Below, piece after piece: positions 3,463-20,433 of a stretch of DNA of 21,783 bases; the first letter of the stretch is position 1; every line of letters begins with the position of its first letter. Made by a program: the position numbers and the translations under genes. The DNA is from a virus. The stretch is from the IMG/VR virus record IMGVR_UViG_3300046516_000238, positions 1 to 21,783 of that record, one strand, 5' to 3'. A model generated the notes under the pieces. The model was not told the DNA's origin and ran no database searches. It saw only the letters and a program-made list of their open reading frames with translations.

Positions 3463-4880
3463 TGGCCAACTGGCTTACGAAGATAGCCAAGCCTTTCATC
3501 GGGAAGGCCACTGAAGGGCAGCCACGGGATGGACCGTGGCTCTTGCCCGTCACAGGTGGTTGGCTTCCTGCCACTGTCGGTGACAAGTGGAACTGGTGGC
3601 AGCTTGGCTACAACGTGGAATCGTTTGCACCTTCTGCGGTGGTGGAGGCGTGTGTCTCTGCCTATTCGCAGACGGTGGCGATGTGTCCCGGCGATCACTG
3701 GCTGGCGGATGGCAAGGGTGGGCGAGAAAGGATCACTACATCCGATCTGCATCGCATTCTACGCCAACCGAACGACTATCAAAGCATCTCTGATTTTCTG
3801 CTCAATGCGGTGCGGTCGCTTTATCTGACAGGCAACGCCTATGCACTAGCCGAACGCAACAGCCGTTTTGAAGTCGATTCGCTGCATCTGCTGGACGCGC
3901 GTTACAGTATGCCGATGCTCGCGGAGACCGGTGATATTTTCTATCAGACAGGCGGCAACCAGATTGTCGACAAGCTGTTTGGCGATCAGCTTTTCATTCC
4001 GGCCCGCGATATCCTGCATATCAAGTTGCAGGTCAACATGGCCCGCAACATCTTGCTGGGTGAAAGCCCACTGGTCGCCTTGGCCCGCGAGGTTGCGCTG
4101 TCGGACGCGGTCGCCCAGCAGCAACTGAACTTCTATATGAATCAGGCGCGGCCCAGCACGGTGCTATCGACTGACATGGTGCTGACCAAGGAGCAGGTTG
4201 AGATCATCCGTCAACGCTGGGACGAACAGGCCAAGGGGATGGGCTCAGGCGGCACACCAATCCTGACGCAAGGGTTGAAGCCGGTTTCGATGCCGACGAT
4301 GACGGCGGAAGAGCAACAACTGGCCAACATTCTCAAGCTGTCGCAGGAGCGCATATCGATGGCGTTCCGTGTGCCGCTTCAGATTCTTGGTGTCGGCGCA
4401 CCAGCAGGATCGACAGAAGTGTTGATGCAGCAGTGGATCGCGTCCGGTCTTGGCTTCTGCCTCAACCACATCGAGGAATGCATCGGTAACTTTTTCAACC
4501 TCGACGGACAGCCTGATGAATACGTCGAGTTCGACACCAGAGCGCTGTTGCGCTCCGCGTTTGCCCAACGTGTCGAGGGTTACACCCGTGGTGTGCAGGG
4601 CGGCATTTTTTCTCCGAACGAAGCCCGTGCCGAGTTTGAGATGCCAGCAGTTGAAGCTGGTGACGAGCCGCGCGTACAGCAGCAGGTCGTTCCGCTCTCG
4701 GCAGCAAACGCGATCCCGGCCATGCCAGCCGCACCGGGAGCGCCCCCAGCAGCAGGTCAGCCAGCGGTGACAAAGCCGTCTGCTGCATCATCAGATCAAA
4801 AGGGCATATCCAATGCCGAACTTGTCGAGCGATCTCTCACAGCTTTCTTCGATTCCCAGACAAGAAATCTCTCCATTTGA
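3462..4880 (+). CDS. HK97-type portal protein
   Basis: The 472-residue product matches the HK97-type portal family. The portal forms the dodecameric ring at one capsid vertex through which DNA is packaged and ejected. Recognisable segments include the N-terminal SAVVEACVSAYSQTVA region, LYLTGNAYALAERN, the ILHIK strand near residue 184, SPLVALAREVAL, and ERISMAFRVPLQILG at 296-310, which is the conserved stem/crown area. The C-terminal 60 residues are Ala/Pro-rich and low complexity, as in many portals. The start overlaps the upstream stop by one base. The last 68 bases overlap the next gene in another frame. The unusual point is order: in HK97-like modules the portal normally precedes protease and capsid, whereas here it follows them. 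Confidence 0.93.
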   Translation: MANWLTKIAKPFIGKATEGQPRDGPWLLPVTGGWLPATVGDKWNWWQLGYNVESFAPSAVVEACVSAYSQTVAMCPGDHWLADGKGGRERITTSDLHRILRQPNDYQSISDFLLNAVRSLYLTGNAYALAERNSRFEVDSLHLLDARYSMPMLAETGDIFYQTGGNQIVDKLFGDQLFIPARDILHIKLQVNMARNILLGESPLVALAREVALSDAVAQQQLNFYMNQARPSTVLSTDMVLTKEQVEIIRQRWDEQAKGMGSGGTPILTQGLKPVSMPTMTAEEQQLANILKLSQERISMAFRVPLQILGVGAPAGSTEVLMQQWIASGLGFCLNHIEECIGNFFNLDGQPDEYVEFDTRALLRSAFAQRVEGYTRGVQGGIFSPNEARAEFEMPAVEAGDEPRVQQQVVPLSAANAIPAMPAAPGAPPAAGQPAVTKPSAASSDQKGISNAELVERSLTAFFDSQTRNLSI

Positions 4881-6429
4881 GGCGCTGGCCAGAGAACTTG
4901 GAGCAGTAGCTGGTCGTATCGAACGAGAGACTAACCTAAAAATAAATACATCCATTGCCGAAGCGAAAAACCAGCACATGGCGCTGGAGATGCGCTTTGC
5001 AAGAATGGAAGAAGACCTGACCAATGTTCTACGTGAAACACGCGAGAGGTTGGCAACCCTGAAGGATGGCAGAGATGGTGAGGTTGGCAGGGAAGGTCCG
5101 GTCGGGCCGCAAGGCCCGCAAGGCGAAACCGGCCCGCAAGGCGCTGCGGGCAAAGACGGTGAAGCGGGCAAGGAAGGCCATGAAGGCAAGGTTGGAAAGA
5201 CTGGAGAAGCAGGAAGATCCGGAATCGACGGTAATCCCGGAGAGCCCGGAAAAGACGGACGACACGGCATAGACGGCAAGGACGGTGCCCCCGGTCCACG
5301 CGGTCCTATCGGTTTGCAGGGATTGCGTGGGTTGCCCGGTCGTGACGGCAAGGATGGCATGCCCGGTTTACGCGGAGAGCGCGGCGAGAAGGGGATACAG
5401 GGAGAGCGTGGATCATTTGGAGCACCCGGCTTCAACGGCAAAGATGGTGCTGACGGTGAGCGCGGCGAAAAAGGCGAGCCCGGTGACCGTGGCGAGATGG
5501 GTCCAATCGGTCTGTCGATCAAAGGCGATCCCGGTGAGCAAGGCGAGAAGGGTGAGAAGGGTGATCCCGGTTTACCCGGTATGGTTGGCAAGGACGGTAT
5601 ACCCGGTGAACGTGGCGATCCCGGTGAGCGTGGTGCCCACGGCGAGCAAGGCGAGCAGGGGCCTGCTGGGCCTCCCGGTTTGGTCGGCAAGACTGGTGCG
5701 CCCGGTGAGCGCGGAGAAATCGGTCCACAGGGTCCGCAGGGAGAACACGGGCTACCCGGCATGCAAGGCAAGGATGGCGCACCGGGTCAGCGCGGCGAGA
5801 TAGGTCTGCAAGGCTTACGTGGTTTGAAGGGCGATGCAGGCAGGGACGGCAGAGATGGCAAGGATGGATCGCAGGGCGAACGCGGTTTACCGGGGCCGCA
5901 AGGTGCGCCCGGTAAGCTACCCAAAGTCAGAGCATGGGCTGAGGGCGTCAGCTATGAGGGTGATGTTCGTACTTATCAGGGCGGCTTGTTTCAGGCTGCA
6001 TGCGATACATCAAAGTCACCATGGGACGAAAAGGATTGGGTTTGTCTTGCCGCTGCTGGTACGAACGGCGAAGACGGTGCTGATGGCCGGTCGCTAACGA
6101 TCAAGGGAACGTATAACGCAACCGAGAAATATCATGCGCTAGATGTTGTCACTCTGGATCACACTTGGCATGTCGCTAAGAAGGATAACCCCAGCGCATG
6201 TCCCGGCCCAGACTGGAAAGCTGGTCCCGGAATCGGTCGAACCGGCAAGCCCGGTGACCGTGGTGAGCGCGGACTACCCGGCAAGGAAGGACCGGCTGGG
6301 CGTGAGGTCATCGCTTGGGATATTGATCGGAAGGCATATCTAGTTACGCCGATCATGAGCGATGGTGAGAAGGGTTCGACACTTTCTGTGCGTGAGTTGT
6401 TCGATCAATTCCAGATAGAGACGCGCTGA
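4813..6429 (+). CDS. Collagen-like fibre protein with two carbohydrate-binding-like modules
   Basis: This is a 538-residue protein. Residues 1-85 are a helical, coiled-coil-like stalk or trimerisation segment. Residues 86-369 are Gly-X-Y triplets, about 94 in all, with a single two-residue interruption (GLSIK, about 233-237). Residues 373-412 resemble a chitinase-type carbohydrate-binding module (W375, Y381, Y388, W404, W409), and 432-468 form a second, shorter look-alike ending PGPDWKAG. A short second Gly-X-Y block (about 471-498) and a 40-residue tail follow. Bacterial and phage collagen-like proteins form trimeric rods in fibres or surface appendages. AAAAGGG (4797-4803) supports the ATG, which lies inside the portal gene. 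Between portal and head-tail connector, a head fibre or neck appendage is as plausible as a tail fibre. The fold is certain; the virion location is inferred. Confidence 0.88.
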   Translation: MPNLSSDLSQLSSIPRQEISPFEALARELGAVAGRIERETNLKINTSIAEAKNQHMALEMRFARMEEDLTNVLRETRERLATLKDGRDGEVGREGPVGPQGPQGETGPQGAAGKDGEAGKEGHEGKVGKTGEAGRSGIDGNPGEPGKDGRHGIDGKDGAPGPRGPIGLQGLRGLPGRDGKDGMPGLRGERGEKGIQGERGSFGAPGFNGKDGADGERGEKGEPGDRGEMGPIGLSIKGDPGEQGEKGEKGDPGLPGMVGKDGIPGERGDPGERGAHGEQGEQGPAGPPGLVGKTGAPGERGEIGPQGPQGEHGLPGMQGKDGAPGQRGEIGLQGLRGLKGDAGRDGRDGKDGSQGERGLPGPQGAPGKLPKVRAWAEGVSYEGDVRTYQGGLFQAACDTSKSPWDEKDWVCLAAAGTNGEDGADGRSLTIKGTYNATEKYHALDVVTLDHTWHVAKKDNPSACPGPDWKAGPGIGRTGKPGDRGERGLPGKEGPAGREVIAWDIDRKAYLVTPIMSDGEKGSTLSVRELFDQFQIETR

Positions 6430-8903: not shown

Positions 8904-10421
8904 ATGCCCGTGTCTTTCAGTCACGTTCCCGCAAATTGGCGGATGCCACTTTACTGGGTGGAACTTGATCCTAGCAAAGCTGGCTTGCCGACTTTTCAGG
9001 GTCGCTCGTTGCTTGTCGGCATTATGAATACGGCAAGTGCAAGCGCTATGGCCAACGTGCCGGTGCCAGTGGCATCGCAGGCGCAAGCTGATGCATTGTT
9101 TGGCCAAGGTTCGATGCTGGCCAGCATGTTCCGCACTTTCTTTGCCAATAACTGGGCGAACGAAGTTTGGGGTCTGCCGGTAGCCGAGCCTGCCGGTGCA
9201 GCAGCAACTGGAACGATTGTTGTTGCATCGCCAGCAACAGGGTCTGGTACGATTGCTCTATACATTGCTGGAATGCTTGTGCCGGTGCCTGTGTCGGCGG
9301 GGGATGCGGTTGGTGTTATCGCTACATCTATTGTAACGGCGATAACTAACAACAAGGATTTGCCGGTTACGGCAGTCGCCGCGACCGGTACCGTCACGCT
9401 CACTGCCAAGTGGAAGGGCACTCTCGGTAACGAGGTCAACGTGATGCACAGCTACTACGGTACAGTTGGTGGCGAGCAGTTGCCACCGGGTGTAGCGTTG
9501 ACATTTACCCAGCCGGTCAACGGTACCGGCGATCCGATCTTCACGACCGCCATTAGCAATCTTGGTGAAACAGAAGTCGATTACGTCTGCATGCCGTTTA
9601 CTGATCAACCGTCGATGTCGGCATGGGAGGCGGAATTTGGATTCTCTGACACTGGTCGGTGGGGCTTTATCCGGCAGCACTATGGTCAGATTTTCAACGC
9701 CAAGAGCGATACTCACGCCAACCTTCTGACGTTTGCTGCCACGCGCAACAGCGCCCAGATGTCGGTTATGGCCGTCGAACTTGCCAGCCCAACTCCATCT
9801 TACCAATGGGCGGCGGCCTATACGGCGAAGGCGGCACGGGCATTGCTCAATGATCCGGCGCGGCCATTGCAGACGCTATCGCTGGATAGCTGTCTACCGG
9901 CACAGGGACAGAATCGTTTCCTGCTATCGGAGTTGAATGCTCAGGCATACGGTGGTCTGGCCACGCAACGTACAATCACAGCGACACCGGTAATCATGAG
10001 GGAATCCACTACTTACGTTAAGAACCTATACGGAAATACTGACGACGCCTATGAACTTGTCACGACGCTTGCCACACTTACCAAACTGATACGCAATCAG
10101 CGTCAGGCTATCACTAGTAAATTCCCGCGTCACAAACTGGCGGACGATGGCACAAGATTCGGCGCTGGGCAGGCCATTGTCACGCCGAAGATCATCAAGG
10201 CGGAATTGGTGGCACAGTATCGCATTGATGAGTTCAACGGACTGGTGGAGAACGGCAAGGCGTTCAAGGACAATCTTATCGTTGAACGTGACGCAAATGA
10301 TCCGAACAGAATTAATTGTCTTTATCCACCAGATTTGGTCAACCAACTTCGGATCTTTGCGGTTCTTGCGCAATTTAGACTTCAATACGATAGAGGGGTG
10401 GACACTGTAATAGCTGCATGA
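8904..10421 (+). CDS. Contractile tail sheath protein (Mu gpL-like)
   Basis: The 505-residue product matches Mu-type sheath proteins, which polymerise around the tail tube and contract at infection. It begins MPVSFSHVPANWRMPLYWVE, typical of the family. A variable, Ala/Gly/Val-rich inserted domain (about 90-200) is followed by the conserved core: DYVCMPFTDQPSM, GRWGFIRQHYGQ, the ARALLNDPARPLQTL segment, and a C-terminal domain (YRIDEFNGLVEN, LYPPDLVNQLRIFAVLAQFRLQYD) that forms inter-subunit strands. A strong Shine-Dalgarno (AGAGGAGA, 8889-8896) precedes the ATG, as expected for a high-copy protein. The last 30 codons use AGA arginine codons and more A/T-ending codons than the rest, next to the HNH gene. 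It proves a myovirus-type tail. Confidence 0.95.
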   Translation: MPVSFSHVPANWRMPLYWVELDPSKAGLPTFQGRSLLVGIMNTASASAMANVPVPVASQAQADALFGQGSMLASMFRTFFANNWANEVWGLPVAEPAGAAATGTIVVASPATGSGTIALYIAGMLVPVPVSAGDAVGVIATSIVTAITNNKDLPVTAVAATGTVTLTAKWKGTLGNEVNVMHSYYGTVGGEQLPPGVALTFTQPVNGTGDPIFTTAISNLGETEVDYVCMPFTDQPSMSAWEAEFGFSDTGRWGFIRQHYGQIFNAKSDTHANLLTFAATRNSAQMSVMAVELASPTPSYQWAAAYTAKAARALLNDPARPLQTLSLDSCLPAQGQNRFLLSELNAQAYGGLATQRTITATPVIMRESTTYVKNLYGNTDDAYELVTTLATLTKLIRNQRQAITSKFPRHKLADDGTRFGAGQAIVTPKIIKAELVAQYRIDEFNGLVENGKAFKDNLIVERDANDPNRINCLYPPDLVNQLRIFAVLAQFRLQYDRGVDTVIAA

Positions 10422-11041
10422 TGAAGCGGTGTAAAAAGTGCGGAGAGAAATTTCCGGCGACATCTGAGTTCTTCTACGAACACAGGAGACGCGGAAGAGT
10501 AGAATTACGAACAAGGTGTAAACCTTGTATTCTAAAGCAGTGTCATGAGTACGGAAAAAATAACGCTGACACTGTTCGTGAGTACAACCTGCGCCGCGCG
10601 AAGACAGAGCATCATCGTGAAATTATTCGTAAGGCGCAGGAGCGATATCGTGCGAAGCCAGAATACAGACTGAAAGATCGTAAGCAATACAGACGGACTG
10701 TCTCAACACCGGAAGGTAGAGAGAAAATCCGTGTGAAGGTGAGAAGGCGACGTGCGCGGATAAATGGCTCAACACGCCACCACACCGTAGCTGATATTAG
10801 GACAGCGTTAGAGGTGCAGAACAATCTGTGTTTCTATTGCCGCGCCGATATATCAGCAAGCTACACGGTGGACCATCTCATCCCGCTAATTCGCGGTGGA
10901 AGTGACGGTCCTGAGAATATCGTCATGGCCTGCGCGAGTTGTAACTTTCGCAAAGCCGATAGGACTCCAGAGGAGTTCAAATCCGGCATAACACACAGGA
11001 GAGCGCTATGGCGCAGCGGATTGCCGGGATTGCATTTTTAA
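10418..11041 (+). CDS. Free-standing HNH endonuclease with N-terminal zinc ribbon
   Basis: This is a 207-residue protein. Residues 5-37 form a likely zinc ribbon (C5/C8 and C34/C37). A Lys/Arg-rich helical middle (about 50-115) follows. The C-terminal HNH domain has C138xxC141, the catalytic VDHLIPL (D152, H153), N167, and C172xxC175 with N176, all intact. Free-standing HNH genes often act as homing endonucleases in phages. It lies between sheath and tube genes, which are normally adjacent. Its start is ATG 10418 or 10421 (ATGATG), overlapping the sheath stop. Its last 34 bases run into the tube gene, whose Shine-Dalgarno lies inside it. Codon use is more A/T-rich than in its neighbours. Family and insertion are clear; homing activity is inferred. 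Confidence 0.88.
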   Translation: MMKRCKKCGEKFPATSEFFYEHRRRGRVELRTRCKPCILKQCHEYGKNNADTVREYNLRRAKTEHHREIIRKAQERYRAKPEYRLKDRKQYRRTVSTPEGREKIRVKVRRRRARINGSTRHHTVADIRTALEVQNNLCFYCRADISASYTVDHLIPLIRGGSDGPENIVMACASCNFRKADRTPEEFKSGITHRRALWRSGLPGLHF

Positions 11042-11370
11042 AGGTGGACGGTGCGCAGTTTCCGTTGCGTGGAAACTTTACGGTTACCCCATCGGTGATC
11101 GAGCGAGCCGGTATCGCCGGTCAGGACTACATCCATGGCTACAGCGAATTGCCACGGGTGCCATCAATCGAGGGAGACGTATCAACCGTACCGGGACTTG
11201 CGGTCGAGGACTTCGACGCTCAGGTCAACGTCACGGTTACCGCCGAACTGGCTAATGGTTCGGTCTATGTGTTGCGCGAGGGCTGGTGTGTTTCGGCCCT
11301 TGCTATCAACGCCCGCGACGGCATGGTCCGGGTCAAATGGGAGGGTATTAGCTGCGATGAGATTCAATAA
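11008..11370 (+). CDS. Tail tube protein (Mu gpM-like)
   Basis: The 120-residue product matches the Mu gpM tail tube family, whose hexameric rings stack into the inner tube enclosed by the sheath. Visible family features are the start MAQRIAGIAFLKVDGAQFPL, the RGNFTVTPSVIERAGIAGQD segment, a DVSTVPG turn, and alternating beta strands (FDAQVNVTVTAEL, GSVYVLREGWCVSALAINA) that would form the tube wall. Length is about that of gpM. CAGGAGAG at 10997-11004 provides a good Shine-Dalgarno inside the end of the HNH gene, fitting high-level translation independent of it. The stop overlaps the next start as TAATG. Confidence 0.9.
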   Translation: MAQRIAGIAFLKVDGAQFPLRGNFTVTPSVIERAGIAGQDYIHGYSELPRVPSIEGDVSTVPGLAVEDFDAQVNVTVTAELANGSVYVLREGWCVSALAINARDGMVRVKWEGISCDEIQ

Positions 11371-11708
11371 TGGCTGAAGAACAAAAATCAGAGGGAAAGC
11401 CAGTAAACGGAGCGGAGGTTTCTGAAATTGTTGTTTCGTTGCGCAAACCAGTTATTGCGCACGGCGAGGAAGTCAAAGAACTTAGATTCCGCGAGCCTAC
11501 TGCTGGTGATATCGAAAGATGCGGCAATCCGGTGAACATCGAGTTCAATGAAGACGGCAAGCCGAAGATGACGTTCAATGAGAAGGCAATGTCGGCAATG
11601 ATGTCGCAACTAGCGACGGTGCCTACATCGACCATCAAGATGATGAACACGCGCGACTGGAATACGGCGGCGTGGAATCTCGCAAGTTTTTTCATGCCGG
11701 ACCTGTAG
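11370..11708 (+). CDS. Tail assembly chaperone, short product (zero frame)
   Basis: This 112-residue protein corresponds to the Mu gp41 / lambda G type of tail assembly chaperone, which coats the tape measure before the tube polymerises and is not in the mature virion. It has an acidic N-terminus, then VVSLRKPVIAHGEEVKELRF and REPTAGDIERCGNP, the pattern of the Mu-type chaperone family, and a C-terminal helical part (MSAMMSQLATVP, NTRDWNTAAWNLASFF). It lies between the tube and tape-measure genes as expected. Normal termination is the TAG at 11706-11708. A slippery heptamer 13 bases before that stop directs a fraction of ribosomes into the longer product. Confidence 0.85.
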   Translation: MAEEQKSEGKPVNGAEVSEIVVSLRKPVIAHGEEVKELRFREPTAGDIERCGNPVNIEFNEDGKPKMTFNEKAMSAMMSQLATVPTSTIKMMNTRDWNTAAWNLASFFMPDL

Positions 11709-11863
11709 AAGCGCTGATCCTCGATTGTTACAGGCTGGCAAAATACTACGGTCGGCCACCGGATGAGTTTCTTAATTTGCCGGTCTCCAAAATAAACAAC
11801 CACATGATGTGGACGGCTAAACTTATTGAAGCCTCGCGATCTTTAGAGGATGAGGATGGCTGA
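11370..11863 (+). CDS. Tail assembly chaperone, -1 frameshift fusion product
   Basis: A -1 slip at 11687-11693 joins the short product, after its FF, to HAGPVEALILDCYRLAKYYG and onward to the TGA at 11861-11863. The fusion is 164 residues, with 108 from the zero frame and 56 from the -1 frame. The second part is the C-terminal domain of the long chaperone form, rich in helices and Tyr/Trp (KYYGRPPDEFLNLP, NNHMMWTAKLIEAS). It has no convincing ribosome binding site of its own. Two forms made in fixed ratio by frameshifting is a conserved device in lambda (G/GT), P2 (E/E') and Mu-like phages. The second frame overlaps the following tape-measure start. The frame and the site are seen directly; the slip itself is inferred. 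Confidence 0.82.
11687..11693 (+). promoter_or_regulatory. Programmed -1 frameshift slippery heptamer T TTT TTC
   Basis: In the zero frame of the chaperone gene the codons read AGT TTT TTC ATG. The heptamer T TTT TTC fits the X XXY YYZ rule exactly: after a -1 slip both tRNAs re-pair on TTT TTT, and reading continues CAT GCC GGA. It sits 13 bases before the zero-frame stop and inside the overlap of the two reading frames, as in other tail chaperone genes. Confidence 0.85.
11696..11739 (+). promoter_or_regulatory. Candidate frameshift-stimulating stem-loop
   Basis: GCCGG (11696-11700) can pair with CTGGC (11735-11739), including one G-U, and after a bulged A (11701) CCTGTA (11702-11707) pairs with TACAGG (11729-11734). 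This makes an 11-bp stem with a 21-base loop. The outer stem starts two bases after the slippery heptamer. If it is melted by the ribosome, the inner CCTGTA stem begins eight bases after it, close to the usual spacer. The pairing is seen; stimulation is inferred. Confidence 0.5.
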
Positions 11864-13526
11864 CCAGAAAATAGAACTTGAGATAGCACTGCGCGATACG
11901 GTTTCCCAGACACTGGAAGCCATCGCCAGCAGGCTTGAAACGATGAACAAGAAGATGACTCGCGGCGGCGAGTCTATCTCCGACAGCGCCGACACAATTA
12001 AGAAGCTGGCCGATAATACCAAGCAAACCGGTCTGGACGCGAAAGACAGCACCAAATCATTGCTGACGATGAATGACGTGCTGAAGCAGATGTCGATGCT
12101 GATGGTCAGCGGACCAGTCGGCGCTGTGGTTGGCATAGCTGTTGCGGCGGGGATGGCGGCAGAAGGGGTAACCAACTTTGTCAAGAAGCGTCTTGAGTTA
12201 AGGAATCTAGCGACAGAGACAGGTCTTTCCGAAAACCAGATATCGGTCATGCAACGCGCCCAAGACAAGATGGGCATTCCGCTGGCGACAGCGACAGGCA
12301 ACATCAAGCAAATTGCTGGTTCGCTGACCGAACTGAGGATCAAGAAGACCGGCAGCGAACTGTACCAAGGCTTAGCAGATATCGGTCAGGGCAAGTTTGC
12401 TGATGAATTGCTGAAGATGGTTGAGAGCGGCAAGATCGATGAAGCGGCCAGAGCGCTCATTGCAAAACATGCCGAGTTAAGAGCCATTGATATCGACACA
12501 GCACGAAAATATGCGACTCATGCTGTCAAGCTGCCGGAATCGATGTTGATGGGATACGAAGAGGCGGCAAGGGGACTTGAGCCTGCCTACCGCGTCAACC
12601 TCGATCACGCTGTGGAGTGGGTCAAGGAGATGGAGATTATCCACGCGCGGGCAAGATCGGTTGTCGATACGGCAATGCATAATGCCTTTGGCCGCATGGC
12701 TTGGTTCGTGGAGCATATGGACTACAGTTTTCTGACCGGCAAACCAAACCCGAAATACTGGGGGCCGTCTGCCCCTCCCGTGCCACCACCGCTGCCATCA
12801 ATATCGGGGACAGGTGTTGGATCGATGACGCCGAAAGAACTTGACAATTATGCTAATTCAAAAAAGCAGAGCCTGAAAAAACAAAAGGACATCGGCACCA
12901 TCCTGCAAGATATGTGGGACAAGACAAAGAGCACGGTCGGTCGGCAGGAAGGTGGACCTGTCACATCGGGAAATATGTACAGGGTTGGTGAGCGCGGGCC
13001 GGAAGTATTCGCCGCTGGCGGGCAATACGCGATGGTCGGTGAAGGAGGGCCAGAAGTTATTCGGGCACCGACATCCGGCAACATCACCAAGGCTGATCTC
13101 ACGCGCGGTGCTCAGGTTGCTCGCGAGCGGGTTGAGAGCGTTGCGCGTGACTGGCAACCGCCAAGTCCTTCATCCGTTATTGCCAACAGAGCTTTAGGGT
13201 TTTTCGCTCCAAAGGGTTTATCTAATGCAGTGGAGTGGTTGAAGACGGAAGGTGCCAAGGGGGCGCAGTCTGAATGGAGGCCGTGGCTGAGACAGAAACT
13301 AGGCATTGAAGACCCCAAAGAACCGACACCGTGGGAGGCTGGCGGTTCGTGGGGTGAGGCCAGACCGATTTTATCATCGGCCCTTAGTGGCGAACTGAGG
13401 AACCCCACTACCAGACTGGATGCTTCCGTAACCTTCAACAACGTGCCACCCGGCGTGAGTACATCAGCCGAAGCCGATGGCATGGACAGCTTCAAGATGG
13501 CTCGTAGCCAGCCGCTGGTGAACTGA
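11856..13526 (+). CDS. Tape-measure-like protein 1 (without hydrolase domain)
   Basis: This protein of about 556 residues is placed where the tape measure belongs, after the tail chaperone. The N-terminal 300 residues are helical and start MADQKIELEIALRDTV. A hydrophobic stretch (SGPVGAVVGIAVAAGMAA) occurs near residue 90. A Pro-rich linker (SAPPVPPPLP) follows, then the element GGPVTSGNMYRVGERGPEVF, found near the C-terminal part of many tape measures. The end, DASVTFNNVPPGV, is typical of Mu-type tape measures. The start is taken at 11856, not 11850, because AGAGGA (11845-11850) then has a proper spacing and the paralog downstream begins MADDPQVDIEVALKD. It is shorter than most tape measures and is paralogous to the next gene. 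Whether it measures length, plugs the tube or is a duplicate is open. Confidence 0.8.
   Translation: MADQKIELEIALRDTVSQTLEAIASRLETMNKKMTRGGESISDSADTIKKLADNTKQTGLDAKDSTKSLLTMNDVLKQMSMLMVSGPVGAVVGIAVAAGMAAEGVTNFVKKRLELRNLATETGLSENQISVMQRAQDKMGIPLATATGNIKQIAGSLTELRIKKTGSELYQGLADIGQGKFADELLKMVESGKIDEAARALIAKHAELRAIDIDTARKYATHAVKLPESMLMGYEEAARGLEPAYRVNLDHAVEWVKEMEIIHARARSVVDTAMHNAFGRMAWFVEHMDYSFLTGKPNPKYWGPSAPPVPPPLPSISGTGVGSMTPKELDNYANSKKQSLKKQKDIGTILQDMWDKTKSTVGRQEGGPVTSGNMYRVGERGPEVFAAGGQYAMVGEGGPEVIRAPTSGNITKADLTRGAQVARERVESVARDWQPPSPSSVIANRALGFFAPKGLSNAVEWLKTEGAKGAQSEWRPWLRQKLGIEDPKEPTPWEAGGSWGEARPILSSALSGELRNPTTRLDASVTFNNVPPGVSTSAEADGMDSFKMARSQPLVN
12987..13004 (+). repeat. 18-base repeat shared with the second tape-measure gene (copy 1)
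   Basis: GGTGAGCGCGGGCCGGAA here is identical to bases 14561-14578. Both copies encode GERGPE in the same frame of two paralogous proteins. It is a short conserved patch within otherwise diverged tandem duplicates. Confidence 0.8.
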
Positions 13527-16024
13527 TGGCTGACGATCCGCAAGTCGATATCGAGGTTGCACTAAAGGACTCGACTTCTTCGGTGCTGAAGGAGATCAGC
13601 AAGGAGATCGACCTTGTCACCCGCAAGATGGTCGAAGCCGGGATCAAGGGTACCGAAGCCTTCAACAGCATCACCCGTCATTCGCGTGGTGGCAGAGAAG
13701 AAATCGAGAAGACCAATGTTTCATTGTCGAGCATGGGCAAGACCATGTTCGAGATGGGCAAGGCCATGCTGGGGCCTGCCGGTCTTGCTGCCGGGTTCGT
13801 TGCTGTATCAAAAGCGATGACGAATTTCGCCCAGCAGCGTCAGCAGTTGCAGATGCTGTCAACGGATGTCGGCTTTACGGCAGAACGGCTGAAGCTTATG
13901 GCGAGAGTGGCTGAGCGTATGGGTATGGACCCAACGCAATCGAAGGCGTTCGCCCAGCAACTCGGTGGTCAACTGAAAGAACTGGCTACCCTGAAGATGG
14001 ACAGCCCGTTGTTTCAGAACCTGACAAGGATGGGCGAGTCTAATTTTGCGAGGGAATTACTGAAGACGGTCGAGGCCAAAGATTTCGACAAAGCGATGGA
14101 TATGATCGTTGCTAAATTTGAGGAGATGGGCAGAAAAAACAAAGACGCTCAGGAGTATTTCGCGAGAGATGTTCTCGGCATCAACGTCAGCATTCTGAAA
14201 GAGTGGACGGAAACTTCGGCAGGGATCGTGGTGGTCCAGCAGAAGAGTCTGGCCGAGACAAAAAAATATCTGGCCGATGTCGAGGCAGTCCACAACGCGC
14301 TCAATACGGCAATGGGCGTGACGTTCGATGTCATCTATACAGGTATGGAGAAGACCAACAAGAAATATGAAGAGTTCTCTAATATCATCAAACCACTGCT
14401 TTCTTCCTCCGTTCCATCGGATGTTCAGAACGTCAGTCCAGAAGTCACCAATCCGGCTATCCGAGAACTAAGGGGGTTGCCAATATTAAAGGAAGGTCCG
14501 CAAGCACCGGAGAAGCGGGCCGTTGGTGGACCTGCTTACTCAGGCCGTAGCTATGTTGTCGGTGAGCGCGGGCCGGAATTGTTCACACCGAACCAGAGCG
14601 GGACAGTGGTTGCCAGCCTGTCGAACGCGCAGCCGCAACTGCGGGAGATGGTGGATACCGAAAAGGAATCCAACAAGGCGCTGGATGACATTCTCACGGT
14701 CTTGAAGGAAATGCAGGGACCACCCGGTGGTCAGGGTGGTGCGATGGGGTTTGGTGGGCTAGGCACTGGTGGCCCCCCCAGCGCTGGCGGCGGTGGCGGC
14801 GGCGCTGGCACGTCTGTCGGGTCTATAGGGCAGTTGATGGGCACTGTTCATGGTTACGGCGTCAATGCTTACGCTGGTCAGACCGGACAAAAACTATTTG
14901 ATCCAATGAGCGGTTCGCTGGGTGGCGGTCTTGGTGGATCAAGCGCCATGTTCGGTCCCGGTCAGCACATGGGCATCGATATCATGGGCAAGATCGGATC
15001 ATCAGTTTATGCGATCAAGGATGGTGTCATCGTCAAAGCGCCAAGGGCTGGCGGCGGTATCGATCAGGTTCTTACAATCAAACACGCAGACGGCACTTAC
15101 ACGCGCTATCTGCATCAGGGTTATCTGCCGGGTCAGTATGTCGGCAAGCCGGTTACTGGCGGATCGGTTGTTGGATCGAGCGGCTATCGCAATGCACCAC
15201 ACAGCCACGTAGAGTTCTGGGTCGGTGAACCGGGTGCTCGCGGATCGCAACTTGGAAACCTGCGGGCTATCATGGGTTGGGATAAAAACAATCTGCCTGA
15301 AGGTGGAAAAGAAAGAGTCGGACGTGGACCAAGCGATGCCCCGGCAGTTGCTGGTACCGCTACCCAAACTACTTCTCTTGCTGAATCACGCACACAGCAG
15401 GCTAAAGAACTTGATGATCCGAAGGTACGCGACAAACTTATGGCTTATGCCTACGCGGAAGTCGGACACCAAGGTCCGAAGGCTGTTCAGGCTTTTATAG
15501 AAGAAGTGTTCAATCAGTCGGCGTCTCGCGGCAAATCTATCAACGATGTCTTAGCAAGCCGTTACTTTCCGGGTGGCACACATGCGGCAGCAGCGCGGCG
15601 TGGAGCGCCAACCGCTGTGCGCGATGCATACGGCAACATCATCGGAAAGGTTGTCGCCGGATCAAATATATCCGGTTATGCCACCGGCAATGCGTCCGGC
15701 AATGTGGGTTTTGGTGGTGGACCACAAACATTCAAAGCTGGTGGTGAACGGTTTGGAATCGAGGGACAAGATATTCCGTGGGCGCGACGGCAAGCCGAGG
15801 TTGATGCGCAGCGCCGTGAGTCTATGAATAAAGCGCTAGCTGACAAGATCGAACTGCGAACCGGCAAGGTATCGGCAACCGTCGACTTTGGAGACTTGGC
15901 GAAGAAAGAAGAAGCGAAGATGCCGTTCTTTAAACTGAAGCAGGGCGTCGAACCGCAAAATCAATCGGTGCGTGAAAGCCAAGTCGTTCCCGGCGACTCA
16001 GGTCACAGTGACTGGGTGCCGTGA
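13526..16024 (+). CDS. Tape-measure-like protein 2 with M23 peptidase domain
   Basis: This is an 832-residue protein. Residues 1-300 align by eye with tape-measure protein 1: MADDPQVDIEVALKDSTSS, a hydrophobic LGPAGLAAGFVAV segment, then helical repeats. At about 332-350 it has GGPAYSGRSYVVGERGPELF. A Gly-rich linker (about 395-427) leads to an M23/LytM endopeptidase with all metal ligands present: H481 and D485 (HMGID) and H559 with H561 (HSHVEF). M23 enzymes cut peptide cross-links in peptidoglycan, and in tails they help DNA cross the cell wall. Residues about 630-690 (YAYAEVGHQGPKAVQAFIEE, then NDVLASRYFPGG) look like a second, lysozyme-like or cell-wall-hydrolase domain, less certain. 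The start overlaps the upstream stop (TGATG). The likely role is tape measure plus virion-associated lysin. Confidence 0.87.
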   Translation: MADDPQVDIEVALKDSTSSVLKEISKEIDLVTRKMVEAGIKGTEAFNSITRHSRGGREEIEKTNVSLSSMGKTMFEMGKAMLGPAGLAAGFVAVSKAMTNFAQQRQQLQMLSTDVGFTAERLKLMARVAERMGMDPTQSKAFAQQLGGQLKELATLKMDSPLFQNLTRMGESNFARELLKTVEAKDFDKAMDMIVAKFEEMGRKNKDAQEYFARDVLGINVSILKEWTETSAGIVVVQQKSLAETKKYLADVEAVHNALNTAMGVTFDVIYTGMEKTNKKYEEFSNIIKPLLSSSVPSDVQNVSPEVTNPAIRELRGLPILKEGPQAPEKRAVGGPAYSGRSYVVGERGPELFTPNQSGTVVASLSNAQPQLREMVDTEKESNKALDDILTVLKEMQGPPGGQGGAMGFGGLGTGGPPSAGGGGGGAGTSVGSIGQLMGTVHGYGVNAYAGQTGQKLFDPMSGSLGGGLGGSSAMFGPGQHMGIDIMGKIGSSVYAIKDGVIVKAPRAGGGIDQVLTIKHADGTYTRYLHQGYLPGQYVGKPVTGGSVVGSSGYRNAPHSHVEFWVGEPGARGSQLGNLRAIMGWDKNNLPEGGKERVGRGPSDAPAVAGTATQTTSLAESRTQQAKELDDPKVRDKLMAYAYAEVGHQGPKAVQAFIEEVFNQSASRGKSINDVLASRYFPGGTHAAAARRGAPTAVRDAYGNIIGKVVAGSNISGYATGNASGNVGFGGGPQTFKAGGERFGIEGQDIPWARRQAEVDAQRRESMNKALADKIELRTGKVSATVDFGDLAKKEEAKMPFFKLKQGVEPQNQSVRESQVVPGDSGHSDWVP
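14561..14578 (+). repeat. 18-base repeat shared with the first tape-measure gene (copy 2)
   Basis: Identical to 12987-13004 and in the same codon phase, encoding GERGPE. See the first copy for meaning. Confidence 0.8.
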
Positions 16025-17161
16025 ATGGCGAAGGTATCAGAGCTTGCCGTTCTAGAGATCAACGGCAAGCTATATCAGGACTGGGAAACAGTAAGTGTCG
16101 TTCACCAGAAGCAGAAAAATCCATTTTTCTCGTACCGCTTTACCTGTTCGGAAGCGATGCCACTGGCGAAGAATTTCGGTGTATTGCAGATCAAACCCGG
16201 TGACACCTGTCAGGTTACGCTGGCTGGACAGCAAGCGGTCTTTGGTTACGTCAATACGCGGCAGGTCTTCTATGATTCAAAGCGGCACTACGTTGAGATA
16301 CAGGGGTCGAGCAGTGTGGCTGGTCTGGCGTACTCCAGCGCAATTTCCAAGACGATGGAATCCAAGAACGTCACTGCTGAGCAATACATCAAGAGCCTGC
16401 TGAAACCAGTTGGTATCAATCTGAAGGTAGAGGGCGGGCAGTTACCGCAGACGAAGTTTGATCGGTTGTCTATTGCGCACGGTACAACAATACTGGAAGC
16501 GATAGAGCATCCGTTGCGAATGCTCGGAAACTTTCCGCTTACCAGTAACACGAAGGGAGATTTAGTGGTGAGTGCCGGGACGACCGGCAAGGGTGGCGAT
16601 TTTGTCGAGGGTAAGAACATCTTGGAGGGGCGGGAGATAATTTACAACGAAGGAATGGCTACGCATATCTACCCGGTTGCCCAGAATCCCGGTACTGACA
16701 AAAAGAGCATGGTGCAAGTGGCCAGCGCTCCTTTTCTTAAGCAAAACTTCGATGGGCTTGGCTTGATATCTCGCTTCCTCCCTGCCGTGATCCCAACTGA
16801 GTTGCCAGCGCAAGCAAAGACTCAACTAGCCAGTCGTGCCAGCACGGACAACAGTTTGATGAACGGTGATCGCGTAACTCTTTTTATCACCGTTCAGGGT
16901 TGGCTTAATCCAAGCGGCAAGCTGTGGGACATTCAAGGGACATACAGCGTCAAGTCACCGATGCTGTTGATGAAGGGGGATGAGAAGCTACAGGCATATG
17001 CGATCACGTTCTCGCAGGACAATGAACGCGGCAGTCGGACGCTGCTGGAGTTGCGTAATGATGCGGCGATGTTTGGTGCCGTTCCAACTACTGGCGGCGA
17101 CAATACCAGCACCAGCGATGGCAACCTGCAAAGCGGACAAGAAGGCGGGGTTCATACATGA
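16025..17161 (+). CDS. Baseplate hub protein (Mu gpP / gp44-like, T4 gp27 fold)
   Basis: The 378-residue product matches the Mu gpP / late-control-gene-D group, which forms the trimeric hub holding the spike. Characteristic parts are an N-terminal strand block (SELAVLEINGKLYQDWETVSV, split over residues 5-25), PFFSYRFTCSEA, a LKIKPGD-like turn (LQIKPGDTCQVTLAG), the VEIQGSSSVAGLAYSSA segment, the helix TAEQYIKSLLKPVGI, and a C-terminal part ending in a Ser/Gly-rich tail. It begins directly after the tape-measure stop and overlaps the spike start as ATGA. In Mu, gene N lies between the tape measure and P; here it does not. Confidence 0.87.
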   Translation: MAKVSELAVLEINGKLYQDWETVSVVHQKQKNPFFSYRFTCSEAMPLAKNFGVLQIKPGDTCQVTLAGQQAVFGYVNTRQVFYDSKRHYVEIQGSSSVAGLAYSSAISKTMESKNVTAEQYIKSLLKPVGINLKVEGGQLPQTKFDRLSIAHGTTILEAIEHPLRMLGNFPLTSNTKGDLVVSAGTTGKGGDFVEGKNILEGREIIYNEGMATHIYPVAQNPGTDKKSMVQVASAPFLKQNFDGLGLISRFLPAVIPTELPAQAKTQLASRASTDNSLMNGDRVTLFITVQGWLNPSGKLWDIQGTYSVKSPMLLMKGDEKLQAYAITFSQDNERGSRTLLELRNDAAMFGAVPTTGGDNTSTSDGNLQSGQEGGVHT

Positions 17162-18957
17162 CGATCAGGACCACACTGTCGCAGGTCGCGCGGCAAGCTC
17201 AGATGTCATTGTCGCGGGCAACCGTGCGCGAGTTCGATGATGATCATCTGATGCAGCAGATTAAAGAAGCTGACGTATATCACAGCGAGACACCGTCAGA
17301 TTTTGAGCGGTGGCAACCGGTTGGCATGACGGCGTTTCCGATCAAACAGCAGGAAGACCCCGACCAGAAGAAGCCGCAACAGAAATCGCAGAACGATCCG
17401 GGTGACTGGAATCACGACCAACCGACCGGTCCTGCTGCGGAGGCTGTGATGCTCTATATGAACGGCCAACGATCACATCCAATTGCGATGGTCGATGATC
17501 GGCGCGTCCGGCCCTACGGCATGAGCGAGGGTGAAGGCGCTCACTATGCGCCGGATGGATCGGAACAGATGGTGCTGTTCAAGCAGACCGGCACGTATGT
17601 TGTTTCTCTTGATGGTAAGTCGGTCAAGGACAAGAACGCTAAAGACGTTCGCATGGCGAGTTTGCGTCACGTCAATAAGAAGATGCAAACGCACAAGATT
17701 GATGATGACAGCAGCAGTCAGCAATCCAATCAGAGCGGTGGCGGTCAGGCAGCGCAAGCGCAAGCTCAAGCTAAAATACAAGTGGGGGCTCGCGCTGGTG
17801 ACGGCGGGGGTGGTGCGGCTTCTCCTCCCGGCCAATCATCCGGCCAACAGAAGGAGAAATACAAGCACGAAGGCGACAGCGTCAACACCGAAGTCCGCGC
17901 CATCAAGGATCATATCGAGTTCTATGCTCCCGGTGACAAGCTGGTCGGTATTTACGATAAGTCGCAAAAGCGCTGGTTTCTGGATGTCGATGCGGCTGGC
18001 AAATCCACTACGGAGATGCTGACCAACAAGATCGTCCACAAGGTCGAGAACTCCAGCACCACGTATGAACCGAACAAGATTACGCATGCAGTCGGCGGCG
18101 CGAGCATTGAGATCACCGATGGCAATATCAAGTTATCGGCGGCGAGGATCGATCATAACTCCGGTGGCGGCGATAGCACGTCATCGGGTGACGATACCGA
18201 CACCACAACAACACTGAGCGCTAAATCCAAGGGTCTTGCCAGCGGTCTCGGTGGCGCAGCCGGTGGACTCGGTAGCCTGTCGAGTGGACTGGGAAGTGTT
18301 GCCACCAGTGTCGGTGGATTGAGTGGACTGGCTGGCAACCTTGGTTCTCTCGGTGGAAACCTCACCGGGTTAACGAGCGGCCTGTCCAGCATTGCTGGTA
18401 ATCTTGGTAGTCTTGGTGGTTTGCTCAGTGGCATTAACGGTCTTGGTGGTGCTCTTTCCGGTATCAACGGTGGCATTGGATTGCTTAGTGGTGCAATGAG
18501 TGGCCTGAGCAGTGGACTGGGTGGTCTGAATATTGGCGGGCTCAACGGTCTAGTCAGTGGTCTCAGCGGATTGACTGGTGGCTTGAGTGGTTTTGGTGGC
18601 GGTATCGGCGGCATTCTTTCCAGTGTTACTGGTCTTGTTAACAATATGAGCACCATGACTGGAATGCTGGCTGGCTTGCCTAATATCAGTTCAATCATGG
18701 GCGGACTGAACAGCCTGTCGTCATCGCTTGGTTCGATATCTGGCATCGCCAATGTCGTGACTAACATCGGCGCTATTGCCGGAAACTTGACTAGCCAGTC
18801 AGGCGCTCTTGGAAGTCTGGCTCCTGTTATTTCAGCGGTGACGGTCGGTCAGATGGGACAATTGCCGACAGATTTAAACACCACGATCAATTCGCTAAAG
18901 GCTTTGGTCGCCCAGTTACAGGCACAGGTAGTAGCGAATGCCAGCAGCGCATCGTGA
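17158..18957 (+). CDS. Baseplate spike protein (Mu gp45-like) with long Gly/Leu/Ser-rich extension
   Basis: This is a 599-residue protein. The N-terminal part (about 15-145) matches Mu gp45: an OB-like domain with PVGMTAFPI, a Pro/Gln-rich insertion (about 62-90), AAEAVMLYMNGQRSHPIAMV and the RPYGMSEGEGAHYA segment. Polar repeats (180-235) follow, then a strand-rich stretch (about 236-332, such as EVRAIKDHIEFYAPGD and ASIEITDGNIKLSAARID) suiting the spike beta-helix. From about 355 to 560 it becomes a Gly/Leu/Ser/Asn-rich region with repeats such as NLGSLGG, LSGING and SGLGGL, and a helical end. Gp45 itself is about 200 residues, so this extension is unusual. It might extend the needle, contact membrane or hold the tip, which is inference. 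Its last 20 bases overlap a PAAR-like gene, its likely partner. Confidence 0.85.
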   Translation: MTIRTTLSQVARQAQMSLSRATVREFDDDHLMQQIKEADVYHSETPSDFERWQPVGMTAFPIKQQEDPDQKKPQQKSQNDPGDWNHDQPTGPAAEAVMLYMNGQRSHPIAMVDDRRVRPYGMSEGEGAHYAPDGSEQMVLFKQTGTYVVSLDGKSVKDKNAKDVRMASLRHVNKKMQTHKIDDDSSSQQSNQSGGGQAAQAQAQAKIQVGARAGDGGGGAASPPGQSSGQQKEKYKHEGDSVNTEVRAIKDHIEFYAPGDKLVGIYDKSQKRWFLDVDAAGKSTTEMLTNKIVHKVENSSTTYEPNKITHAVGGASIEITDGNIKLSAARIDHNSGGGDSTSSGDDTDTTTTLSAKSKGLASGLGGAAGGLGSLSSGLGSVATSVGGLSGLAGNLGSLGGNLTGLTSGLSSIAGNLGSLGGLLSGINGLGGALSGINGGIGLLSGAMSGLSSGLGGLNIGGLNGLVSGLSGLTGGLSGFGGGIGGILSSVTGLVNNMSTMTGMLAGLPNISSIMGGLNSLSSSLGSISGIANVVTNIGAIAGNLTSQSGALGSLAPVISAVTVGQMGQLPTDLNTTINSLKALVAQLQAQVVANASSAS

Positions 18958-19234: not shown

Positions 19235-19765
19235 ATGGCAACTATTCAAGAGATAGCCCCAGCACCGTGGCGCAAGGCTTTACAACCAGCCAAATACGGT
19301 GGGGTAGTCTTTCACGTCGAGTCGCAAGCCCGCAGTGGTGGTCGTCGTGTCGTCGCCCACGAATATCCTAAGCGCGATACTCCTTATTCTGAAGATATGG
19401 GTCGCGCGATGACGCGCTATCAGGTTACCGGTTACCTGATAGGGCCAAGTTATCACCAAACCAAGAGAAACTTAATCAAGGTGCTGGAGAGCGGCACAGC
19501 TAATGACTTGGTCGATCCGTATTATGGTTCGATCAAGTGCATCTGTGATCGCTACAGTGTAACCGAGACACGCGAGCGCGGCGGTTATTGTACGTTTGAG
19601 ATGTCCTTTCTGGAGGTTGGCTCATCAGGAAATTCGGTGGAGCAGACCAACAGTCAGACGACTCTGCAAAACAAGGCAACGGATACGGGGAACACAACAG
19701 CAAGTAATGTAGATGTGCCTAATGTTGTCGCACCTCCCGGCGCTGCTGGCATAGGACATGCATGA
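19235..19765 (+). CDS. N-terminal half of a Mu gpN-like (DNA circularisation) baseplate protein
   Basis: This 176-residue protein closely follows the N-terminal domain of the Mu gpN / DNA circulation family: GVVFHVESQARSGGRRVVAH, EYPKRDTPYSEDMGRA, the YQVTGYLIGPSYHQTKRNL segment, a DLVDPYYGSIKCICD turn, and a C-terminal GGYCTFEMSFLEVG. The Mu protein is a single chain of about 490 residues that belongs to the baseplate and is also needed for protecting injected DNA. Here the chain ends after a Ser/Asn/Thr-rich tail, and the C-terminal half is encoded by the next gene through an ATGA overlap. In Mu, gene N lies before P; here it lies after the spike and PAAR genes. Confidence 0.82.
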   Translation: MATIQEIAPAPWRKALQPAKYGGVVFHVESQARSGGRRVVAHEYPKRDTPYSEDMGRAMTRYQVTGYLIGPSYHQTKRNLIKVLESGTANDLVDPYYGSIKCICDRYSVTETRERGGYCTFEMSFLEVGSSGNSVEQTNSQTTLQNKATDTGNTTASNVDVPNVVAPPGAAGIGHA

Positions 19766-20433
19766 AAAAATCAGAACGTGCAGAAGCTATTGAAGTTTCA
19801 CGGCGCATAATAGGGCCGTTAACTACTTTCCCCGTGTCTTCGTTCAGCACGGCTGCGGCGACCATGCGGCTGGCTATCGGCCAGTACATGAGTAATTTTA
19901 CCGAACTGAGATTGGACACGACTGTCGGTCCTGAATTGCTTACTTGCTTTGAGACGGCACGAAATGCGGGGGCAACGCTAGGCACGATGGATAGGGTTCG
20001 TGTTGCTATGTTTGAGGAAGCTCCGCAGTTTCCGCTGTGTATCTCTATCGTCAACGCAGCGATTATCTTTTCGTTTGTCGAGCAGTGTCAGATCATTGCT
20101 GTAATGGAGTTCAGGAGTCGAACCGATGTTAATCTGGTTATTGACAAGATGGTTCCGATTATCGATGAAATTAAATTGAACAGGACTGAGTCATTTTTGG
20201 TTTCTGATTATCAAAATTTTGTCGCCCTGTCGGCATTGCTGATCCAGCATCTGTCGGCAACTGAGCGGCAGCTACCGCGTATCTTGCAGCTTACCTTCCC
20301 GGCAAATTTTCCATCACTCGCTTTGGCCAATCGTATTTACGCCGATGCATCGCGCAGCGATGAATTGATTGCAGAGAATAGGACTGTCCATCCAGCCTTT
20401 ATGGCCAGAGATATTCTGGCGCTGAGTTCATAA
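19762..20433 (+). CDS. C-terminal half of a Mu gpN-like protein, encoded separately
   Basis: This 223-residue protein resembles the C-terminal region of Mu gpN-like proteins. The best signature is at the end: QLPRILQLTFPANFPSLALA, NRIYADASRSDELIAENRTV and HPAFMARDI, a segment also related to the LysM-like close of baseplate proteins. The preceding helical part (about 20-190) fits the family's middle region. The start overlaps the upstream stop as ATGA, which suggests coupled, equal synthesis of two subunits. No frameshift or stop mutation is needed to explain the split, because the frames differ and each part has clean ends. A recently broken gene is therefore less likely than a stable two-gene form. 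Confidence 0.75.
   Translation: MKKSERAEAIEVSRRIIGPLTTFPVSSFSTAAATMRLAIGQYMSNFTELRLDTTVGPELLTCFETARNAGATLGTMDRVRVAMFEEAPQFPLCISIVNAAIIFSFVEQCQIIAVMEFRSRTDVNLVIDKMVPIIDEIKLNRTESFLVSDYQNFVALSALLIQHLSATERQLPRILQLTFPANFPSLALANRIYADASRSDELIAENRTVHPAFMARDILALSS

Follow-up and report, generated by a model that had tools for sequence, protein, structure and literature searches.

Tandem paralogous tape-measure genes in a group of Mu-like phages: a candidate mixed tape carrying peptidoglycan hydrolases

To our knowledge, the tape measures described so far consist of identical chains. Published tape-measure proteins (TMPs) are trimers or hexamers with their C-termini in the baseplate (PMC10996793; PMC11445458; PMC11661146). 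Hydrolases on tape measures are already known: the Tmp of TM4 bears a hydrolase motif, which aids infection of stationary-phase cells (PMC1796659), and gp95 of phiCbK is a tape measure with a CHAP domain (PMC3556154). A single tape measure is annotated in Mu, Bordetella PBb001 and Acetobacter phiAP1. The open-access literature was searched for two, second, tandem or duplicated tape measures (subscription papers were outside the scope of the search), and no case was found. By that literature, the paralogous tape pair analyzed here appears to be new. The preliminary description of this DNA had remarked that a single tape measure normally suffices, and the unusual presence of two is supported here.

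The DNA analyzed (the window, meaning the whole stretch), a virus record of 21,783 bases, carries a Mu-like module for head and contractile tail, in which sheath, tube, gp44-like hub, gp45, GP46 and baseplate J follow one another in order (Table 1). TMP1 and TMP2 are found in the position of tape measures, directly after a frameshifted chaperone gene and before the hub and DNA-circularization genes. No chaperone gene other than TAC was found for the two proteins, and the -1 frameshift in TAC adds a 56-aa extension to TAC that ends at 11863. At the related loci, one TAC gene likewise lies upstream of the TMP gene or genes, and a slippery heptamer with a -1 extension ending beside the first TMP start was present in 36 of 37 loci.

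Further features were observed in the rest of the module. The prohead protease (S78) and the major capsid protein form one fused 770-aa ORF (window 55-2367), and a collagen-like 538-aa ORF in the head module (4813-6429), which overlaps the 3' end of the portal gene, matches Pfam collagen repeats and tail-fiber PHROGs. The sheath-tube junction (10418-11041) looks like an insertion hotspot, with an HNH endonuclease in the window, a possible GIY-YIG gene in the corresponding gap of locus L006, and an AcrB-type efflux pump plus an outer-membrane efflux protein in that of Bradyrhizobium locus L085 (13271-18688). Gaps of 0.4-8 kb were found here in 19 of 104 loci, some of which overlap. The gp45-like protein (17158-18957; 599 aa) has a long Gly/Leu/Ser-rich tail, and its match to the Mu gp45 family is confined to residues 20-62. 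The DNA-circularization protein (Mu N; 19235-20433) is encoded in two pieces, ORFs of 176 and 223 aa, which are placed behind gp45 and not before the hub.

Table 1. Features of the window around the tape-measure pair
Feature	Position	Strand	Basis
Mu-like gene content: capsid fused to protease, portal, adaptors, sheath (8904), HNH nuclease, tube; chaperone, TMP1, TMP2, hub gp44, gp45, PAAR-like protein; split DNA-circularization protein, GP46, baseplate J			
Tail assembly chaperone (Phage_TAC_7, Mu gp41-like; TAC)	11370..11708	+	Pfam PF10109, E 8e-11
Slippery heptamer T TTT TTC, -1 frameshift	11687..11693	+	sequence reading
TMP1, alpha-type tape measure	11850..13526	+	PHROG matches, position after TAC, homology to TMP2
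N-terminal helical domain of TMP1, common to TMP2	11862..12659	+	phmmer, residues 5-270
18-base identity in TMP1, VGERGPE motif	12987..13004	+	
Alpha C-terminal end of TMP1 (VTFNNVPPGVSTSAEADGMDSFKM)	13422..13511	+	alpha model
TMP2, beta-type tape measure with hydrolases, 832 aa	13526..16024	+	
N-terminal helical domain of TMP2, common to TMP1	13535..14308	+	phmmer, residues 4-261
18-base identity in TMP2, VGERGPE motif	14561..14578	+	
Peptidase_M23 domain of TMP2	14963..15223	+	Pfam PF01551, E 6.3e-13, above cut-off
SleB-like ("MUR") cell-wall hydrolase domain of TMP2	15437..15697	+	model built here
Beta C-terminal end of TMP2 (VSATVDFGDLAKKEEAKMPFFKLK...DSGHSDWVP)	15866..16021	+	beta model
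Baseplate hub (Mu gp44 / P), directly 3' of TMP2	16025..17161	+	Pfam PF21683, PF22255, phrog_177

The preliminary description had proposed tandem paralogous tape-measure genes, and both ORFs lie where it had placed them. BLASTP aligned TMP1 and TMP2 with 27% identity over 384 aligned columns (E 9e-35). The similarity was also significant between residues 1-300 of the two proteins, where phmmer gave an E value of 1.6e-31 and the Smith-Waterman score was 294 versus 40.8 +/- 6.8 in 500 shuffles (Z about 37), and the N-terminal patterns pointed out earlier, IELEIALRD and VDIEVALKD, are present. The TMP1 stop codon overlaps the TMP2 start codon at 13526. TMP1 comprises 558 aa if read from the ATG at 11850 and 556 aa if read from 11856; the start at 11856 (MADQKIELEIALRD) is the more likely one. 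The reported 18-base identity at VGERGPE is exact (GGTGAGCGCGGGCCGGAA) and is the longest string common to the two genes; in 12 codon shuffles of the pair, the longest common string was 10-14 bases. The patch encodes a short motif, GGPxxxGxxYxVGExGPExF, which is matched in other tape measures too. Therefore, it is no evidence of a recent duplication and says little on the age of the pair.

Matches to tape-measure families were found for both proteins: TMP1 matched phrog_2276 weakly (E 1.4e-8) and TMP2 matched phrog_9570 (E 4.9e-7), and neither had a gathering-level match among the Pfam tape-measure families. AlphaFold2 placed helices at residues 2-296 and 328-359 of TMP1 in a poor full-length model (mean pLDDT 46), the first stretch being of low confidence except for about residues 113-237.

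Using sheath and hub searches, we gathered 137 related loci, several of them overlapping, of which nine were in Bradyrhizobium genomes and the remainder on viral contigs. When viral contigs were searched directly with TMP1 or TMP2, there were no matches. Among the 37 distinct modules with a complete stretch, two large ORFs follow the chaperone in 23 and one does in 14; these 23 pairs fall into about six lineages, which makes the effective sample smaller than their number. The two ORFs are homologous to each other in every two-ORF module, and the pairs sit between TAC and the hub or DNA-circularization gene. The same pair is thus found in other Mu-like phages, where the preliminary description had suggested looking for it, and it is a feature of a group of such phages, not a quirk of one. 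All six complete Bradyrhizobium modules have one tape measure each. A remnant in a Bradyrhizobium-family genome (L150) was considered as indicating a host for the pair and rejected: it has a related hub and no intact tail module. A single gene is also present in the close relatives L022, L096 and L133, which shows that the pair is not needed in this tail type.

The partners of a pair have unlike C-terminal ends, which we call alpha (FxNVPxGVxTxAxxxGxF...) and beta (VDF...RSPQAPxAGGG...FE, or a form found in lineage W, the window's own). These types were first assigned by eye and later checked with leave-one-lineage-out models of the C-ends, according to which there is one alpha and one beta end in 23 of 23 pairs, with L063 and L069 marginal. 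With the window's lineage left out of the models, the TMP1 end scored 37.7 bits for alpha versus -1.5 for beta, and the TMP2 end scored 23.2 bits for beta versus 3.3 for alpha. The alpha gene comes first in lineages W, A, L127 and L063, and the beta gene in B and O. The C-ends of the singles L022, L096, L133 and L130 score for both types. Across lineages, alpha-alpha and beta-beta similarities exceed alpha-beta similarity overall. In the C-end tree, which is weak because the ends are short (about 50 residues), the alpha rows lie on one side of a branch (95/76); grouping by lineage was rejected for A (p 0.03), and the corresponding tests for W (0.09) and B (0.12) did not reach significance.

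The N-domain tree unites first and second copies within each lineage. N-domain identity at the same locus is 62% in lineage A and 57% in lineage B, versus about 31-34% between A and B, and a tree with all alpha copies as one clade was rejected (AU p 1e-68). Together with the C-ends, we read this as an old alpha/beta pair, the N-domains of which appear to have been replaced by the partner's copy at the root of every lineage, i.e., by gene conversion. On the tail-gene tree, with four changes, the pair would then have been lost in L130 and in the L022 group and gained separately in L063. The joining of both copies within lineages would also be expected if single-TMP ancestors had been duplicated independently in each lineage, with the C-ends partitioned alike each time. 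Singles beside pairs (the L022 group and L130), with ends scoring for both types, are in line with such repeated duplication, as is the separate gain in L063 on the tail-gene tree. However, the C-ends sort by type across lineages, and a Cys-peptidase cassette shows 67% identity between A and B, the N-domains of which share only about 31%. Since an ancestral pair with N-domain overwriting requires fewer coincidences, repeated duplication seems to us a possible but rather doubtful history. It concerns only how the pair arose and is compatible with a mixed tape.

According to the preliminary description, one tape measure has a hydrolase and the other lacks one. This holds in the window, where hydrolase domains were detected in TMP2 only. 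The zinc-ligand motifs HxxxD and HxH of its M23 domain are intact (HMGID and HSH), and the domain matched M23 peptidases in the PDB (LytM, lysostaphin) with E values down to 7.7e-9. The MUR domain is predicted to be SleB-like and is not put forward as a proven SleB (lytic transglycosylase). Its AlphaFold2 model (pLDDT 73) was aligned to the catalytic domain of SleB (4fet) by VIA-align with a Z score of 7.8 (93 residues, 3.8 A), well above the other rows; furthermore, an E and an N are invariant in its alignment, and there were weak viral SleB-like matches. A Foldseek search with this domain gave nothing significant, Pfam gave no match, and sequence searches of the PDB found nothing. For TMP1, no hydrolase match was obtained in Pfam, PHROGs or NCBIfam, and its AlphaFold2 model, weak overall, contained no confident hydrolase-sized domain.

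The division into one partner with and one without a hydrolase is not general. In other loci, hydrolases are often present on the two partners alike; a common combination is a Cys peptidase on one protein with a SleB-like domain on its partner. The arrangement in the window is therefore a local variant. In lineage A, the Cys-peptidase cassette is on the first gene and the SleB-like domain on the second, and in lineage B the order is reversed. This cassette is akin to the TIGR02594/CHAP domains of L082 and L090, two Bradyrhizobium singles with a Cys peptidase and a SleB-like domain on one protein. In lineage W, TMP2 carries an M23 domain or a Cys-peptidase cassette and TMP1 is usually bare (the window, L091, L095 and L028), the exception being L006, in which TMP1 has a glucosaminidase. 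An exchange between partners was considered for the two glucosaminidase cassettes of L006 and rejected: each matched L066 at 60-61% and the other at 58%.

Ruler length was compared between partners by the position at which a conserved motif follows the ruler domain. In 13 pairs other than the window's own, which are not independent of each other, this position co-varies between partners (r 0.99; 0.94 without L127), and partner motifs are 7-29 residues apart. The conserved motif was picked after a measure based on the Gly/Pro linker had given an r of only 0.31 and was replaced, which weakens the test. In the closest relatives, again leaving out the window's own pair, dN/dS was about 0.1 for both copies, indicating that both are under purifying selection in the close relatives tested. 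Together, the ruler co-variation, the dN/dS values, the single chaperone and the published TMP oligomers with their C-termini in the baseplate favor a mixed alpha/beta tape. A tape of this kind, delivering peptidoglycan hydrolases, is in our judgment probable, with co-assembly inferred. Of the roles suggested in the preliminary description, the mixed tape is the best supported, given the conserved pair, the matched rulers, the likeness of the N-terminal domains within each lineage and the alpha and beta C-ends.

Nearly length-matched ruler parts would also be demanded if each tail had a homo-oligomeric tape, of TMP1 in one kind of virion and of TMP2 in another, with different hydrolase loads; TMP-like N-domains and C-ends kept in both copies would suit such alternative tapes as well. 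Interchangeable rulers, however, would not need the unlike C-ends present in all 23 pairs, and the difference of 7-29 residues would yield two slightly different tails, so we regard alternative tapes as improbable. We are similarly skeptical of a division of roles in which a single copy serves as the tape, while its partner has become a plug of the tube, a pilot or an ejection protein and uses the tape's N-domain just to enter the tube. The window's TMP1, which is shorter than TMP2 and without a recognized hydrolase, would fit such a role, and the TMP1 proteins of L091, L095 and L028 resemble it. In lineages A and B, however, both copies keep the N-domain, the C-end and a hydrolase and are similar in ruler length, and the type order is reversed between lineages, which leaves no obvious accessory copy. 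The plug or ejection role, also raised in the preliminary description, is thus less likely. Finally, chance retention of a redundant duplicate without distinct function is very improbable, because the ORFs are intact in 23 modules and strong purifying selection acts on both copies in the closest relatives, even though some close relatives manage with one gene.

For the mixed tape, we propose that TMP1 and TMP2 would share the lumen of the tail tube, forming a single mixed helical tape where a homo-oligomer is reported for other phages; their co-assembly in one virion and its stoichiometry are inferred. The N-terminal ruler domains would be held alike and matched in length, and the single chaperone (TAC with its -1 frameshift product) would load both proteins. 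The unlike alpha and beta C-ends may dock at non-equivalent places in the baseplate hub. Upon infection, the tape would be expelled, bringing into the periplasm the enzymes that are predicted to open the peptidoglycan; in this phage, these would be the M23 endopeptidase and the SleB-like domain, if active, of TMP2, with none on TMP1. We see about even chances for a stronger form of this proposal, in which the tape is obligately heteromeric and is made by co-evolving paralogues, with ruler domains kept alike via gene conversion and with baseplate ends and enzymes divided between them.

If the proposal is true, such a natural tape encoded by two genes could be used to ask which of the copies counts tail length, in what way tape symmetry is matched to the hub and how the injected enzymes are divided by a phage. 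Furthermore, the pair and the nearby singles (the L022 group and the Bradyrhizobium prophages) provide a natural comparison for duplication and subfunctionalization in a phage structural protein.

Compared to known systems, the window shares with phage Mu the neighborhood of sheath, tube, chaperone, tape measure, hub and gp45, and its sheath shares 39% identity with Mu L. In Mu the tape measure (gp42) is single, whereas the window has two paralogues, and unlike in Mu, the DNA-circularization gene is split and lies behind gp45. The Bradyrhizobium Mu-like prophages L082 and L090 have related tail modules and the same SleB-like domain; in contrast to the window, they have one tape measure with both enzymes, the second being a TIGR02594/CHAP-type Cys peptidase, followed by the DNA-circularization gene. 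As in TM4 Tmp and phiCbK gp95, a hydrolase rides on the tape, but in those phages the enzyme is on a single tape gene, while here the ruler and the enzymes are shared out between two paralogues. The homotrimers of diffocin and JBD30 resemble the proposed tape in being helical, in occupying the tube lumen and in having the C-terminus in the baseplate (PMC10996793; PMC11445458). Their chains are identical, whereas the window encodes two gene products with different C-ends, for which we propose a shared place in the lumen.
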